A stretch of DNA of 32,043 bases from Oligoflexales bacterium (lineage in GTDB: Bacteria > Bdellovibrionota_B > Oligoflexia > Oligoflexales > Bog-1112): NCBI GenBank assembly GCA_017985985.1, contig JAGNWK010000027.1, positions 1 through 32,043 on the forward strand, in the 5' to 3' direction. The position numbers were made by a program, and so were the translations under genes. Below the pieces are notes generated by a model that saw only the letters and a list, made by a program, of their open reading frames with translations, did not search any database and had not been told where the DNA came from. Positions 65 through 6,953 of this stretch are shown here, piece by piece (position 1 is the stretch's first letter; each line of letters begins with the position of its first letter).

Positions 65-622
65 ATGCTCCCGGAATCTCTCCATAAAGAGATCCTCCTC
101 CGAGTGGCCAACTTGGAATCGGTGGCCCCCGAACTGATCGATGAAATTGAAGATGTCTTACGTCAGGAAGTTCAGTCTATGGGGTCTATCTCCACCGACA
201 AACTCGGGGGTGTCGATGCGATCGCAGACATGCTCAATCTGATGGATAAAACGACAGAAGAAGAGCTACTGGACAACCTCGAAGAAAGAGATCCGGACCT
301 TGCTGAAGAGATCAGACAGCTCATGTTCGTGTTCGATGATCTCGTCAAATTGGACGATCGAAGTATGCAAGAGCTTGTGAAAGGTGTCCCCGTCGACAAA
401 TGGAAGGTCTCCCTTAAGTCAGCATCTGAGGGTGTAAAAGAAGCGATCTTCCGTAATATGTCTGCACGCGCTGCTGAAATGCTTAGGGAAGACATGGAGG
501 CTATGGGGGCTGTTAAACTCTCCGATGTAGAGTCTGCTCAATTCGAGATCTTGCAGATTTGCAGGAAACTAGAAGAAGAAGGGAAAATCGTCATCGCGTC
601 GAAAGAATCCCAATATGTTTAG
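65..622 (+). CDS. fliG: Flagellar motor switch protein FliG, C-terminal part
   Basis: FliG forms part of the rotor switch (C ring) and its C-terminal domain contacts the stator protein MotA to transmit torque. The 185 residues contain the end of the middle domain (LPESLHKEILLRVANLE), a linker, and the charged torque-generating domain with EEIRQLMFVFDDLVKLDDRS and a C-terminal helix ending RKLEEEGKIVI, all typical of FliG. The length is about half of a normal FliG (about 330-340 aa), because the same frame is interrupted by TGA at 50-52. ATG 65 is only the first start after that stop and has no clear ribosome binding site, so independent translation is doubtful. No other flagellar gene follows; a palindromic repeat begins 9 bases after the stop codon. 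Confidence 0.85.
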   Translation: MLPESLHKEILLRVANLESVAPELIDEIEDVLRQEVQSMGSISTDKLGGVDAIADMLNLMDKTTEEELLDNLEERDPDLAEEIRQLMFVFDDLVKLDDRSMQELVKGVPVDKWKVSLKSASEGVKEAIFRNMSARAAEMLREDMEAMGAVKLSDVESAQFEILQICRKLEEEGKIVIASKESQYV

Positions 623-630
623 AGAATTAT

Positions 631-769
631 TGACGTTATGCATGAGATCCCCTGACCGCCTAACAGCCTCGTTCCTCGGCTTTCGGCGTGGGGATGACGA
701 ACTTCCATCCTGGTCATCCCCACGCCGAAGTGAAACGAAGGCGGTCAGGGGATCTTATGCGTAAGTTCA
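631..769 (+). repeat. Palindromic repeat family A, copy 1
   Basis: A long inverted repeat. The left arm carries GATCCCCTGACCGCC and, 22 bases on, TTCGGCGTGGGGATGAC. The right arm is the reverse complement of the same blocks with a shorter internal spacer. Each arm can also fold on its own, because ATCCCC pairs with GGGGAT and CGCC with GGCG. Outer ends (TTATGCAT / TTATGCGTAA) resemble those of copy 2. It separates fliG from the next gene and includes that gene's probable start codon at 757. Confidence 0.9.
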
Positions 770-2556
770 GTTATTCAAAAACTATTCAGGCCAGGGCCTC
801 CGTCCTCACTCTTTGCTCTACCCTCTGGGTAAGTTGTATATCCGAGGGCCCGAGTGCACCTGTTTTTGTAAGAAAACCCAAAACCAATCACATCGAGACT
901 CCCCCAAGTTGCCCAGCAAACTCGATGAGATTAGCATCCGACAAGGACATGGCTCCTAACTCAGTTCCCTGGGTAGCTCTATCTCTCCAAGACAGTTCCT
1001 TCAGCGTTGGTGAACTTCCTACGAAGGGGGGTAAAACAAACCTTATTCTATCTGTAAAAGACAGCACTACACCTGGATTTTTTGCATGGAAACTCTGTGA
1101 CAATGATGGAGCTGGGGCCTGCGAACCTTGGGCAAGAGAGTATGGAACAGACTTCCCTCTGCTCCCCGTAAATTCAGGCAAAGAACTCAGCAAGCCTCGT
1201 CTTTACTTAAAACGCTGTATTTCTCGCCTTGAGCATACAGAAGAAAAAGACCGCGCTCAGGTGCAGCAGCGGTGCACCTTCCCCTCGGCAAGTGATCCTG
1301 CCGACGCTTTTGATAAACCCGAGAAATGGTGCTGTGCCGATGAGAAGTCGATAGCTCTGACTTGGGATGTGACGACCTTGGACAAGAGTCCTGAACGACT
1401 CAGCTGTGTTCAAAAAGAGAGGGGCTACAGCGATGAGTACTTCGGTCTAGCTCAGGGGCTCATCCAACAGAGTCGATCTTATTTAAGTCAATTCTCCCTT
1501 CTTAGTTTTGAACAGGCTCAAAAACATTCTTCCCTCGCCTATCTGGCCTGGAATATCTCAAGCTATGACCCGGCAGCCCTAGCTCTGATGCTCGACCTAG
1601 GTTCTGTAGAAATTGAAAATCTCTGGGCCATGGCCAAGACGGAAAGCTCGGAGGAGGGGGCAAATTCTTCCCAGCTCGTCAAGGCTGAGGGAACAAGTTT
1701 AAAACTGGCAGAGGTAAAAAATTGCCCAGAGCCGAGTGGGACCACGGGGACCACGGGGACCACGATTCCCCTGCTTCCCAGCCCAAGTCGTCCTGTGACT
1801 GTCACCCTCACAACGACCAGCACGACGAGTGCTGCCGTTATTCCTAATCCATCAGATAGCAAAGGGCTTAAGATCGCTCTCCCTGCTGTCTTTGTTCTGG
1901 GTCTTATGACAGCAACAGTAGGCACTCTTATTCTGGGGAACATTCTCCTGCATGAAATTGCTGGCTATGGACTCTCTGACGTAGTGCCCAACGGGACCAA
2001 CTTACGTTCGCAGATTGGTGCTATCGACAAATTCAGTAGAGCTCTGGCTCTTTATAATGACGGGGAAACTAAGCTAACTAAGCCCATGCTCTTGGATGCT
2101 GCGGAGGGGATGCAAAAGTTTTTCCCAGATACTTTCGACAATAGTTTTAAAGAGATGATAGAAGCCGATGCCACTCCTCCTGTTCGCACAGTGACAGAAG
2201 ACCCAGCTCCAGTAGGAGGAGGGGGGAGTCCAAAGAAAACCTTCCCAGAGTGGCAGAAAAGTGAGATTGGTAAAGCTCTCACCAATTCTGCTAACAAACC
2301 AAGATCCTTCCTTCCCACTCAGGAAGCCGTCAAAGCGAAGGAGGCTCTGACCAAAACTCCCAAGGGAGGAGGAATGGTCTCCGTCCTCGGTGGGGTTTCC
2401 GTTTTTTTGGGAGGTCTTCTCCCTATCGGCTTCGCTATTCAGTATGGTTTGAGCGATCAGGACAAGGCTAAAACCGAGAATTTTCTGACGGAAATCAGCA
2501 AAATTTGGGAACGGGTCAAAACGACGAAGCAAAAGCAACTGCAACCTTGTAATTAG
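757..2556 (+). CDS. Cys-rich two-TM putative lipoprotein, paralogue 1
   Basis: Function not recognised. ATG 757 is preferred over the upstream in-frame GTG at 688, because a signal-peptide-like stretch follows it and ends in WVSC, a possible but imperfect lipobox. The protein has about 599 residues. An exported-looking Cys-rich region carries FFAWKLC (near residue 108) and PEKWCC (near 188). A Thr/Ser/Pro linker (about 327-368) includes three 9-base repeats encoding GTT at 1739-1768. A TM segment follows (about 372-398), then a charged region and a second TM near 540-565. The C-terminal motif is WERVKTTK. The same layout and motifs occur in the next gene, so the two are tandem paralogues. The start codon and the weak AGGGG ribosome-binding-like sequence lie inside repeat A copy 1. 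Confidence 0.75.
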   Translation: MRKFSYSKTIQARASVLTLCSTLWVSCISEGPSAPVFVRKPKTNHIETPPSCPANSMRLASDKDMAPNSVPWVALSLQDSSFSVGELPTKGGKTNLILSVKDSTTPGFFAWKLCDNDGAGACEPWAREYGTDFPLLPVNSGKELSKPRLYLKRCISRLEHTEEKDRAQVQQRCTFPSASDPADAFDKPEKWCCADEKSIALTWDVTTLDKSPERLSCVQKERGYSDEYFGLAQGLIQQSRSYLSQFSLLSFEQAQKHSSLAYLAWNISSYDPAALALMLDLGSVEIENLWAMAKTESSEEGANSSQLVKAEGTSLKLAEVKNCPEPSGTTGTTGTTIPLLPSPSRPVTVTLTTTSTTSAAVIPNPSDSKGLKIALPAVFVLGLMTATVGTLILGNILLHEIAGYGLSDVVPNGTNLRSQIGAIDKFSRALALYNDGETKLTKPMLLDAAEGMQKFFPDTFDNSFKEMIEADATPPVRTVTEDPAPVGGGGSPKKTFPEWQKSEIGKALTNSANKPRSFLPTQEAVKAKEALTKTPKGGGMVSVLGGVSVFLGGLLPIGFAIQYGLSDQDKAKTENFLTEISKIWERVKTTKQKQLQPCN

Positions 2557-2558
2557 GC

Positions 2559-2635
2559 AAGGAGGGGCTTGGGGAAACTGCGCAGCTGGTTCCCCAATAA
2601 AGCGGTTCCCCAACAATGCGTTCTCCAATAAAAGA
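2559..2635. repeat. Intergenic palindrome family E (partial copy)
   Basis: Directly after the lipoprotein gene lies AAGGAGGGG, then GGGGAAACTGCGCAGCTGG with TTCCCC following, then two more GGTTCCCC-like pieces. The GGGGAAACTGCGCAGCTGG block recurs in forward or inverted form near 14848, 26570, 26610 and 29450, always between genes. The remainder of the gap to 2712 is AT-rich and holds the strong AGGAGG ribosome binding site of the next gene. Confidence 0.75.
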
Positions 2636-2712
2636 AAAAATCGTGTAAAATAGGACTAGGTTAAAATCCAATTTAAAAAAAGAGCTTAGTTCGTACCAGG
2701 AGGAGTTCGAGT

Positions 2713-5034
2713 ATGAGAGTTTTTAGGGCTAAGACAGCGGGCCTGGCGGCTCACCGTCAACAGTTGACAGGTCGTTTAAAATCGCTTCTTTCTCTGTTCC
2801 TCTTACTAGGGCTCTTTGCAAGTGGGGCCTGTAAGAAGAGCAGCAGCACACCGACAGCGAGAAGAACGACATCGACTTCTTCGAGTCTCTCCGGGTCAAA
2901 AACCTGTTCGACCGGCCTAGCTCTTTTTAGCGACGAGAACTACCGACCCGAGCCTGTAGCTAAAGCGAGTCTCAAGATCGTAAAAGAAGATCTATCTGTG
3001 CTTGTAAGGGACAGGGGCCACGAGCTCTCGACTCTGGAACTCAGTAGGCACCCCCAAAAGGACCTCGATAAACTTGGCTTCTACGCTTGGATGGCCTGTA
3101 AAAAAGGAAAGACCGATACAAAAAACTGCAGTCCTTGGAAGAAGGAATACAGAGATGCATTTGAAGCTGTAGAAGTCCCCTCTGGTAAGATCGAGATCAC
3201 CGCTAAGCTCTGCGTTCAAGATCCAAGTTACATCAAGGATGATGCGAGCTGGGCTTGTAACTCCTCTTCCAACAAGCCTGAAGAATGGTGCTGTGGAGCT
3301 AAAGACAGTTTGTGGGAAGTAAACATGCCTGACAACAAGAAGGCTGATCAGACACTTCTCACATTTTATAACAACCAAGCTCAGTGGGGAGCAGCCTACC
3401 TAGGTCTTTCGATGGAATCTCTGTCTCAGACAAGCAGAGAACTCGGTAGAATGGGATCGGACTGCAAGGGAGCGGAGGTCAAAAAAAATCCTCTGCTTAG
3501 CCTCGTCTGCAACATGACTAGCTTTGAGCCAGCAACCCTAGCTATCATCATGAAAGAAACCGTCATCGGTATTGAAATGATGAAACTTCAAGCTCAGGCA
3601 GATAAAGCTGAAGGGAAGTCTTTTGCTCTGGTTGAAGAACCCACAACGGGGTTCATGCTCGCCGACTCAGGTTGTGCAGGTTCTACCATTGGCGGAACAA
3701 GCTCAGGCAGTGGGGATAGCACTGGAGGCTGGGACGCAACAAGCAGCAGCAGCACAACAGGGGACACACCTGCACCTGCAAGCAGCTCCACAACGGGGGA
3801 TAAACCCAGCTCTACGACGGGAACCGCAAGTGCTCCGACCACAACAGGAACGGGAGTAGCTACGGGAGTTAGTCCTAGGGTTTCAACTAAAAAAGCGCCT
3901 AACACAATTGGGATCATCCTGGGTTCTATTCTCGTTCTGGGTGGTGCGCTGGGTATAGCTCATGCGGCCATGGAGGTGGGTACCGGCGCCCATATTTTTG
4001 ACCATTTGAAGGTCGGTCCCAAATTCATAAGGCCTGCATCAGGTGCTATTAGAGAGTTCATAGCTGCAAGGCATGATTTCTTTACTAAAGAAAAAGAATT
4101 AAACAAAGCTCCAGAAGCTGAGAGGGCTAGACTTCGGGAAGCCAGAGATACCGCAATGGAAAAATTAAAAGCTGCCGCTAAAGGCCTTGCCCCGCACACA
4201 GCTGGAGAAGCCGACGCCAGTGGGAACAGAGCGCCTCTTAAGGCAGAAGACATCGTCCAAGCGACTGATGATGCCGTTAAAGCCAGATTCGGGGCAGCTC
4301 CCCCAGTTGTTGCTACAGATCCTAGTCCCACAGAGGCAGAAAGGGCGAGACTTGAGGCAGAAAGGGCGAGACTTGAGGCACTTAGGGCGAACCTTGTGAC
4401 CGATCTTAGAAGGGATGAAGCAGCGATAAAGGCCCTAGATGATGCAAAAAAGAGCAGGTTAGATGCACTTGGTCGCGAGCCAACAGACGATTCAAAAGAA
4501 AGTTATGAAGCACAAAAAAGAGCTATCGAGAATGAATTTAAAGCTCTAATTCCCGAAGGTGAGGCCAAACTCTCAGAGGAGCAACGAGCTAAGGCTTTAG
4601 AGTTTGCAACAGCAGATATCAATGAAGCAATAGAGAGACTACCAAAACCTACTGCCGTTACTGCAGCCGCCCCAGCTGCAGCTGCAGGTCCAAAAGTAGC
4701 AGATTTAAAACCGTACACAGCTACAGATTTGGCCAATATGGACCTTGAAAAAACAGGAATAGGCGAACTCAAAAGCAGGGTCACGGGAGAGGGGATGGAC
4801 ATCACGACAAGACTTAAAAGTATAAGCGTGATTGGAGTTGGGGTTGCTGGGGTTCTCGCTGCAGGTGTGGGGGCCTGGGCTATATCTGGCGGTGTAGGCC
4901 TGACGGAGCAGCAACAACCCAGCGATGAATACTTAAACAGTATGGAATCGATCCATGAACGGGTGAAACAAACAAAGATGGCCGAAGAAGCCGCCCAAAG
5001 TGCTTGTCAGCTCAAGTTCCCCGGCAGCTGCTAA
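2713..5034 (+). CDS. Cys-rich two-TM putative lipoprotein, paralogue 2
   Basis: Function not recognised; clear paralogue of the gene at 757. ATG 2713 follows AGGAGGAG. The 773 aa start with a signal sequence ending LFASGAC, a plausible lipobox. Shared motifs are FYAWMAC (about residue 123) with C.PWKKEY, PEEWCC (about 190), AYLGL, and N.TSFEPATLAIIM. A Ser/Thr/Gly linker (about 323-392) precedes a TM segment (about 397-420). A highly charged, probably helical insert (about 456-643) contains the direct repeat EAERARLEAERARLEA and is absent from paralogue 1. A second TM lies at about 704-727, and the tail ends with HERVKQTK and two Cys. The layout suggests an envelope protein with an exported N-terminal domain and a long loop between two membrane passes. 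The following hairpin terminator closes the unit. Confidence 0.8.
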   Translation: MRVFRAKTAGLAAHRQQLTGRLKSLLSLFLLLGLFASGACKKSSSTPTARRTTSTSSSLSGSKTCSTGLALFSDENYRPEPVAKASLKIVKEDLSVLVRDRGHELSTLELSRHPQKDLDKLGFYAWMACKKGKTDTKNCSPWKKEYRDAFEAVEVPSGKIEITAKLCVQDPSYIKDDASWACNSSSNKPEEWCCGAKDSLWEVNMPDNKKADQTLLTFYNNQAQWGAAYLGLSMESLSQTSRELGRMGSDCKGAEVKKNPLLSLVCNMTSFEPATLAIIMKETVIGIEMMKLQAQADKAEGKSFALVEEPTTGFMLADSGCAGSTIGGTSSGSGDSTGGWDATSSSSTTGDTPAPASSSTTGDKPSSTTGTASAPTTTGTGVATGVSPRVSTKKAPNTIGIILGSILVLGGALGIAHAAMEVGTGAHIFDHLKVGPKFIRPASGAIREFIAARHDFFTKEKELNKAPEAERARLREARDTAMEKLKAAAKGLAPHTAGEADASGNRAPLKAEDIVQATDDAVKARFGAAPPVVATDPSPTEAERARLEAERARLEALRANLVTDLRRDEAAIKALDDAKKSRLDALGREPTDDSKESYEAQKRAIENEFKALIPEGEAKLSEEQRAKALEFATADINEAIERLPKPTAVTAAAPAAAAGPKVADLKPYTATDLANMDLEKTGIGELKSRVTGEGMDITTRLKSISVIGVGVAGVLAAGVGAWAISGGVGLTEQQQPSDEYLNSMESIHERVKQTKMAEEAAQSACQLKFPGSC

Positions 5035-5144: not shown

Positions 5145-5159
5145 TTTAAGAAACTTAAT

Positions 5160-5308
5160 GACTGATGTTACGCATAAGAAGATCCCCCTGACCGCCTAAC
5201 GTCCTCGTTCCTCGGCCTTCGGCGTGGGGATGACCATGATCGCAGTTCGTCATCCCCACGCCGAAGTGAAACGAAGGCGGTCAGGGGATCTCATGCGTAA
5301 CATCAGTC
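5160..5308 (+). repeat. Palindromic repeat family A, copy 2 (most complete)
   Basis: Same arms and orientation as copy 1. The outermost 16 bases, GACTGATGTTACGCAT and ATGCGTAACATCAGTC, are perfect inverted repeats, so the element ends are well defined here. Internal arms are GATCCCCCTGACCGCC ... GGCGTGGGGATGAC and its complement. Confidence 0.9.
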
Positions 5309-5589: not shown

Positions 5590-5819
5590 CCAATGGGAAG
5601 CGTTACTACTATGTGGAAACTCAGTTCAAAGCAAAGGGCCAAGAACGAAGCGACAAGGAAATAGTCATTCTACTCCTTGCTGCGGTAGGAAGCAAAAACA
5701 ATCCAAAGGAGCAGTCTCGGGATATTTTGAAGGCAAGAGAGCGACTAATGGATTTGAGCGTCGATAATATTTTAAATACTGAGTTATTGGAAATAGGGAA
5801 AAATGATGAACTCTGTTAA
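5586..5819 (+). CDS. HigB/Gp49-type toxin, C-terminal part
   Basis: The 77 residues begin TNGKRYYYVETQFKAKG and contain KEIVILLLAAVGSKNNPKEQ followed by a helix with ARERLMDL. These fit the C-terminal half of Gp49/HigB toxins (G-K-x-Y-R strand, K-x-I-x-LL strand, KTPxxEIxxAxxRLxDL helix). Joined to the upstream ORF with a -1 shift it would give one continuous toxin. The stop codon TGA at 5587-5589 of the first part overlaps this ATG. The end overlaps the antitoxin start at 5803 by 17 bases, as usual in higBA operons. Confidence 0.65.
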   Translation: MTNGKRYYYVETQFKAKGQERSDKEIVILLLAAVGSKNNPKEQSRDILKARERLMDLSVDNILNTELLEIGKNDELC

Positions 5820-6150
5820 AAATACAATAAAATCGTGGATGAGTGAGGATGAGATTATCCAAGCAGAAGAGCTTTCTAAGATGTGGATTCTTGGGGTTAA
5901 AACCCTACGCGGAAGTCTATCCCATACTCTTCATGCTGAGATGGAGGAAAAACATCTCTCCTACAACGAAGTTGCGCGAGCTCTCGGAATTAGTGAAAAT
6001 ATGGTGGCAAAAATCCTGTATGGAAAAGGCAGTGTAAACTTTGACACCATCATCCGTCTTACGAAATTAACAGGAAAAGTTCCCTATATTGCATGGAAAG
6101 ATCCGAGTGAAGTGAAGGAGAAGGATCTGCCTCTGAAAAAGAATGCCTAG
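5803..6150 (+). CDS. HigA-like XRE-family HTH antitoxin
   Basis: A 115-residue protein with a helix-turn-helix at about residues 50-95: LSYNEVARALGISENMVAKI followed by LYGKGSVNFDTIIRLTKLTG. It would bind the toxin and repress the operon, most simply through the 40-bp palindrome upstream of the toxin. ATG 5803 or ATG 5806 are both possible after AGGG. Toxin-first order matches higBA. The C-terminus is Lys-rich. The function as antitoxin is inferred from order and fold. Confidence 0.75.
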   Translation: MMNSVKNTIKSWMSEDEIIQAEELSKMWILGVKTLRGSLSHTLHAEMEEKHLSYNEVARALGISENMVAKILYGKGSVNFDTIIRLTKLTGKVPYIAWKDPSEVKEKDLPLKKNA

Positions 6151-6199
6151 ACACGTCCTCTATATTCAAATTCAAGAAGTTCTCCATGGATAAAGCGCA

Positions 6200-6520
6200 A
6201 TGTGCTTAACGCATCTGAACTTAGACAGTACTAAATTAGCCGCATTTTGTCAGCAGAATGACATAAAGAGGATGTCTTTGTTTGGATCTGTCATCTCGAA
6301 AGATTTTAAGCCTAGCAGCGATATCGATATTATCGTTGAGTTTGAAGATCAAAAAACACCTGGTTTGATCAAATTTTCTGGCATTATGCTCGACTTATTC
6401 GAACACTTTTTCAACAATCGCAAGATAGATCTTTTGACACGTAACATGCTGAAAGGAGAGCTGGGGGACATCATCCTGAAATCTTCAGAGGTGATTTATG
6501 AAAAAGCAGCTAAAGCCTGA
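6200..6520 (+). CDS. MNT-type nucleotidyltransferase (MntA-like antitoxin candidate)
   Basis: A 106-residue minimal nucleotidyltransferase. The signature GSVISKDFKPSSDIDIIVEF carries the catalytic Gly-Ser and the two Asp of the D-x-D motif, with a third acidic position in RKIDLLT. In MNT/HEPN pairs this protein adenylylates a HEPN RNase toxin and neutralises it. No HEPN gene follows; the next ORF is a MazF-like protein, so this is an orphan or an unusual pairing. The ribosome binding site upstream of ATG 6200 is weak. Confidence 0.8.
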   Translation: MCLTHLNLDSTKLAAFCQQNDIKRMSLFGSVISKDFKPSSDIDIIVEFEDQKTPGLIKFSGIMLDLFEHFFNNRKIDLLTRNMLKGELGDIILKSSEVIYEKAAKA

Positions 6521-6542
6521 GGAGAAGAAATAAAAAAAGCTC

Positions 6543-6953
6543 TTGTCCCTTGCCCCCTTCTCCCAAAAAAGAGAGAATAATCAGATCATTACTGGACTAC
6601 ATTTCAAATCTTTATATTTTTCTGATCAGGACTCATCTCGTCGGCAGAGTGATCCCCAACAACCTAAAGATCCCTCTGGCAAGACGCGCATGTACATTAT
6701 CCTTTGTCCACAGGCCCAGCTTGATGCCCAGGGGTGGCCCGTTTGTGTACCTATTGGCTCGAAATGTCGATCCCAGTTACTTGATGCTGAAATTAAGGCG
6801 GGAGAAGGGGGTGTTCAGCACACTTCCTACGTTTGGTGCAACGAACTTTTCACCATAGATCCACGCTTTTTCATCCGACGAATAGGACACCTACCTAGTC
6901 ATTGTGTTGCAGATATTAAAGATGGCATCCGTGACTTTCTAGAACTCCATTAA
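6543..6953 (+). CDS. MazF/PemK-like toxin, N-terminus atypical
   Basis: Residues from about 46 on fit the MazF/PemK endoribonuclease fold: GKTRMYIILCPQAQL, PVCVPIGSK, then EIKAGEGGVQHTSYVWCNEL and FTIDPRFFIRRIGHL, ending in a short helix with DIKDGIRDFLEL. MazF proteins cut mRNA. The usual N-terminal GDI(Y/V)W strand is not recognisable, and the start is uncertain; TTG 6543 has AGGAG only about 15 bases upstream. The protein could be N-terminally degenerate. No AbrB- or MazE-type antitoxin is adjacent. Confidence 0.65.
   Translation: MSLAPFSQKRENNQIITGLHFKSLYFSDQDSSRRQSDPQQPKDPSGKTRMYIILCPQAQLDAQGWPVCVPIGSKCRSQLLDAEIKAGEGGVQHTSYVWCNELFTIDPRFFIRRIGHLPSHCVADIKDGIRDFLELH

Follow-up and report, generated by a model that had tools for sequence, protein, structure and literature searches.

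Two adjacent genes in a 32,043-nucleotide stretch of an Oligoflexales bacterium genome (the window, by which we mean the whole stretch that was analysed) raise the question of what kind of envelope protein they encode, and whether that protein belongs to any recognised family. In this study, we conclude from profile searches and alignments that their products, W1 and W2, are members of a large, lineage-expanded and undescribed family of probable envelope lipoproteins. Both genes are intact ORFs, encoding 599 and 773 aa, respectively (Table 1); the W1 frame is open from a GTG at 688, the ATG at 757 being the more likely start. The two proteins are homologous (25% over 271 aa, E = 2e-14 by BLASTP), and the Cys-rich, NxS..PA-type and ERVK.TK motifs which a first-pass annotation had ascribed to both can all be read in both: FFAWKLC in W1 and FYAWMAC in W2, CEPWAREY and CSPWKKEY, KPEKWCC and KPEEWCC, NISSYDPA and NMTSFEPA (that is, N-x-[ST]-S-[FY]-[DE]-P-A), and ERVKTTK and ERVKQTK in the tail. 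The same annotation had called the genes tandem paralogues. The paralogy holds, but a simple tandem duplication does not, because the closest match of W1 is the C56 paralogue and that of W2 the C108 paralogue (closest relatives were judged by best matches, the paralogue tree containing W1 and W2 being poorly resolved); the two are therefore not a recent tandem pair, and the word tandem describes their position only. A 16-bp tandem repeat lies between them at 2588-2632.

Table 1. Coordinates of the features discussed in the text (window positions unless a locus is named).
Feature	Position	Strand	Basis or remark
FliG C-terminal part	65..622	+	PF01706, 5e-42; 74.6% identity to L067:4182-5174
W1 whole gene	757..2556	+	ORF; family profile match
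W1 signal peptide, lipobox-like Cys27	codon 835-837	+	Cys after hydrophobic stretch; box WVSC deviant
W1 Cys-rich domain, probably Fn3-like beta-sandwich	925..1374	+	AF2, two-row alignment, pLDDT 47; Foldseek
W1 helical region with NISSYDPA	1390..1641	+	Alignment, AF2 secondary structure
W1 Thr/Ser/Pro-rich linker	1720..1866	+	Sequence; 9-bp tandem repeat 1738-1764
W1 hydrophobic segment 1 (TM1), residues 375-393	1879..1935	+	KD 2.1
W1 charged loop, 149 aa	1936..2382	+	
W1 hydrophobic segment 2 (TM2), residues 543-561	2383..2439	+	KD 2.09
W1 C-terminal tail with ERVKTTK	2440..2553	+	Alignment
W2 whole gene	2713..5034	+	ORF; family profile match
W2 signal peptide, lipobox-like Cys40	codon 2830-2832	+	Box SGAC deviant
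W2 Cys-rich domain, probably Fn3-like	2971..3327	+	AF2, two-row alignment, pLDDT 40; Foldseek best E = 0.011
W2 helical region with NMTSFEPA	3343..3612	+	Alignment, AF2
W2 Ser/Thr/Gly-rich linker	3676..3903	+	Sequence
W2 hydrophobic segment 1 (TM1), residues 398-416	3904..3960	+	KD 2.21
W2 charged, coiled-coil-like loop, 289 aa	3961..4827	+	
21-bp tandem duplication (EAERARL) in W2 loop, 2.3 perfect copies	4333..4380	+	Tandem Repeats Finder
W2 hydrophobic segment 2 (TM2), residues 706-724	4828..4884	+	KD 2.1; weak on octanol scale, +0.3
W2 C-terminal tail with ERVKQTK	4885..5031	+	Alignment
Conserved lipoprotein operon including a family member, other families of the phylum	L226:4861-11048, L227:6894-11765, L229:7946-12928		

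A single search with W2 already matches other paralogues in its own genome, and profile searches find 22 family loci in this 2.9-Mb assembly, 12 with profile A4 and 10 more diverged ones with profile A7. Some 22 copies of one undescribed envelope family in a genome of this size represent a large investment. Profile A7, which was made from other genera and holds zero sequences of this genome, matches W2 at 1.7e-6 and W1 at 9.9e-6; an ectodomain-only model from other genera matches W2 at 9e-7, with none of 200 window-shuffled controls scoring, and cysteines are conserved across the family ectodomains. With A7, members were found in all eight genomes searched of the bacterium's own taxonomic family, and phylum-wide there is a match in 12 of 58 genomes, namely those eight plus four others (three of family f13, one of f5), which have a single member each. 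The family is thus conserved outside its own genome. It is also an unrecognised one, as had been proposed: neither W1 nor W2 gave anything significant in Pfam, NCBIfam or PHROGs, and the family profile found no significant match among PDB sequences. Outside the phylum, tblastn found no member among plasmids and phages, nor did a peptide pattern find one in the contigs of IMG/VR and GTDB; this is a weak test because contig searches reach close relatives only.

Most members follow a common plan. Behind a lipobox-like Cys lie a Cys-rich domain and a helical region; a low-complexity linker then leads to two hydrophobic segments that enclose a charged loop, and a short tail ends the protein. It had been suggested that W1 and W2 are exported proteins with a lipid anchor and two membrane segments, and the lipobox-like Cys and both hydrophobic segments were located in each. 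In the first set, 21 of 22 members have a Cys directly behind the signal hydrophobic stretch; the lipobox looks canonical in only 10 of those 21, and WVSC of W1 and SGAC of W2 are deviant. The genome contains lspA (PF01252). Export of the family, with a probable lipid anchor, is supported. Among the 26 sequences having both hydrophobic segments, the loop measures 64-849 aa, and for this reason the insert that W2 was said to have gained cannot be polarised, although the fresh 21-bp duplication reported within it is present. Across these sequences, 121 K/R lie on the loop side vs 71 on the other, and 49 D/E vs 102. In 24 of the 26, the net charge is more positive on the loop side, W1 and W2 being the two exceptions; the sign test on this bias gives 1e-5, a value that overstates it because the sequences share kinship. 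The charge bias supports a hairpin with a cytoplasmic loop for the family, W1 and W2 individually being without that support. The C47, C134, G048 and G049 copies have no strong hydrophobic segments (some other members scored as having none are contig-cut or partial sequences), and since these include the outgroup G048 and G049 copies, the hairpin is either not ancestral or not universal.

The topology of W1 and W2 had been called unusual; that it is without precedent is not supported. Two-TM lipoproteins are known from E. coli, namely YiaM and CyoA (subunit II of cytochrome bo oxidase), which combine an N-terminal lipobox Cys with two TM helices in one protein, as the W1/W2 family appears to do, so that such a topology, though rare, is not new (PMC7139219). 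Neither W1 nor W2 matched the CyoA or YiaM families, including cytochrome oxidase subunit II, in Pfam or NCBIfam. Moreover, the periplasmic domain of CyoA comes after TM2, whereas the W1/W2 family has its large exported domain between the lipid and TM1, and a long loop. SseC-like type III translocators (PF04888) have a hydrophobic hairpin in common with the family, and the paralogue C105c/P0009 matched them at E 0.16, below the cut-off; unlike them, the W1/W2 family has a signal peptide and a lipobox-like Cys. No named family has this architecture of an exported domain and, after it, a membrane hairpin whose loop is so variable.

With regard to the fold of the exported part, AF2 models built on two-row alignments of W1 and W2 only reached pLDDT 47 for W1 and 40 for W2, and in both, helices come after a beta-rich part. 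Fn3 or Fn3-like domains made up most of the top Foldseek matches of the W2 model (best E = 0.011); the W1 model gave many Fn3 domains (best Fn3-type E 0.053), other folds topping and intermixing the list. These results are weak because of the low pLDDT, and they are suggestive only of an Fn3-like Cys-rich domain. Pfam Fn3 gave no sequence match at E <= 1, and the family differs from Fn3 domains of the PDB, to which the low-confidence models of both ectodomains bear a likeness, in its extra conserved cysteines and the attached helical region.

Taken tentatively, the best explanation, to which we give somewhat less than an even chance, is that the proteins form an inner-membrane-anchored binding or scaffold family of the envelope, with an Fn3-like periplasmic domain, a membrane hairpin and a cytoplasmic loop. 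Each protein would be exported by Sec and then lipidated at its N-terminal Cys, leaving a disulfide-braced Fn3-like domain and the helical region in the periplasm. The two hydrophobic helices would cross the inner membrane as a hairpin, so placing the charged coiled-coil loop in the cytoplasm and the short helical tail back in the periplasm. The Fn3-like domain of this doubly anchored unit might bind a putative periplasmic partner and couple it to a putative cytoplasmic partner of the loop. In paralogue C105c/P0009, five RCC1 repeats (PF13540, 2.4e-19) follow segment 2, which is compatible with an exported C terminus. Against this explanation stand the missing charge bias and non-canonical lipoboxes of W1 and W2, the low AF2 confidence, and the members without strong hydrophobic segments.

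It is also conceivable, if unlikely, that these are surface or secreted lipoproteins at the outer membrane or cell surface, whose segments enter a neighbouring or target membrane. Such a location would suit the Gly/Ala-rich segments, which score poorly on the octanol scale in several members, the collagen-like and P-domain neighbours of some loci, and the RCC1 fusion in paralogue C105c/P0009; W1 and W2 are without RCC1 repeats. Asp never occupies position +2 after the lipobox Cys (0 of 37 members), so there is no E. coli-type inner-membrane retention signal, and this also favours the surface. However, Asp at +2 is not the usual retention signal outside enterobacteria, positions +3/+4 being those that matter in P. 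aeruginosa (PMC6469965), and the positive-inside bias of the family argues against a surface location. Lys-Ser at +3/+4 in W2 (CKKSS) and C56 (CSKSP), which may be comparable to MexA, points the same way. The lack of Asp at +2 would equally fit a tether of both membranes, whose lipid would sit in the outer membrane and whose hairpin in the inner one, the ectodomain and low-complexity linker reaching across the periplasm; 200-400 residues, often including a long flexible linker, separate the Cys from segment 1. We consider this quite improbable, since the Lol system would have to release a protein that TM helices hold in place, for which no known example was found here, and since the linker is short in some members such as C56.

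Our comparisons show that the paralogues have diverged through duplication, strong divergence of the loop and added domains, and that several have decayed. The L067 relative has a long extra region ahead of segment 1, and two members have loops of more than 750 aa. Among three recent paralogues, C15, C31 and C95, identity is 86-92% in the helical region and 85-94% in the tail, 72% in the ectodomain (C15 and C31 only, C95 being without one); the membrane segments share 41-60% and the loops 18-32%, and synonymous divergence too is greater in the segments and loop than in the helical region and tail. This pattern fits a swap of the segment-loop-segment cassette; rapid evolution of the loop with indels is the alternative, as the segments are short and the loop aligns poorly. 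One might imagine a modular recognition system, in which hairpin-loop cassettes are exchanged between a conserved Fn3-like ectodomain and a conserved tail; the roughly 20 paralogues of each genome would then link a surface or periplasmic cue to differing cytoplasmic partners, or discriminate between cells; to us this is a speculative and rather remote prospect.

Decay is seen as an in-frame stop in C31, a frameshift that splits C105b, and truncation of C95 and C47 near repeats; some of the broken copies may be assembly errors, the contigs being draft. The copy at L066:2570-3289, whose ectodomain shares 86% identity with the C54 copy across 87 aa and gives way to a long short-period repeat, is also apparently broken. 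A dispersed palindromic repeat is present in dozens of full or partial copies in the genome, many of them near members. The broken copies on C31, C105, C95 and C47 and the repeats close to members are what would be expected of a weakly constrained, mostly redundant family grown by repeats and duplication and having little present function. Nevertheless, the dN/dS between recent paralogues of 0.06-0.32 in the ectodomain, helical region and tail, together with the presence of members in every genome searched of the taxonomic family, makes that reading improbable. Copies of the palindromic repeat at 625-775 and 5157-5307 flank W1 and W2, and the proposed W1 start codon lies inside the first.

As to genomic context, the family is testable and well bounded, and it leads to a conserved lipoprotein operon in outgroups. 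In G048 and G049 (f13) and G012 (f5), the member lies within a co-oriented run of predicted lipoproteins, several of whose genes overlap by a few bases; in f13, a class-3 lipase and a protein with an AgmX/PglI C-terminal domain come after the run. The copy on C134 of the bacterium's own genome retains the upstream partner of the outgroup operon and has lspA downstream. This outgroup synteny suggests that the ancestral form was probably one subunit of an operon-encoded lipoprotein complex.

A fliG gene precedes the window pair, and likewise member L067 in genome G004. We do not take this as functional evidence, because in G007 the gene next to fliG is an unrelated lipoprotein and chance alone, by our own rough estimate, would give about 0.1 shared neighbours. 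The fliG frame before position 65 seems open to the contig start except for a TGA at 50-52, and FliG is full-length in relatives; the TGA may stem from misassembly at the contig edge or mark a pseudogene. Elsewhere, a P-domain protein at L064:2330-4804 and at L021:2230-2976 (84.7% identical between the loci) precedes the family member in both places and looks by eye like a metalloprotease with an HEWGH motif. At L009:2846-5725, a predicted lipoprotein with collagen repeats (PF01391) is divergently oriented to paralogue C105a. In the window itself, an HTH protein, a Pol-beta nucleotidyltransferase and a PemK/MazF-like protein, possibly a toxin-antitoxin set, follow one another at 5803-6953.
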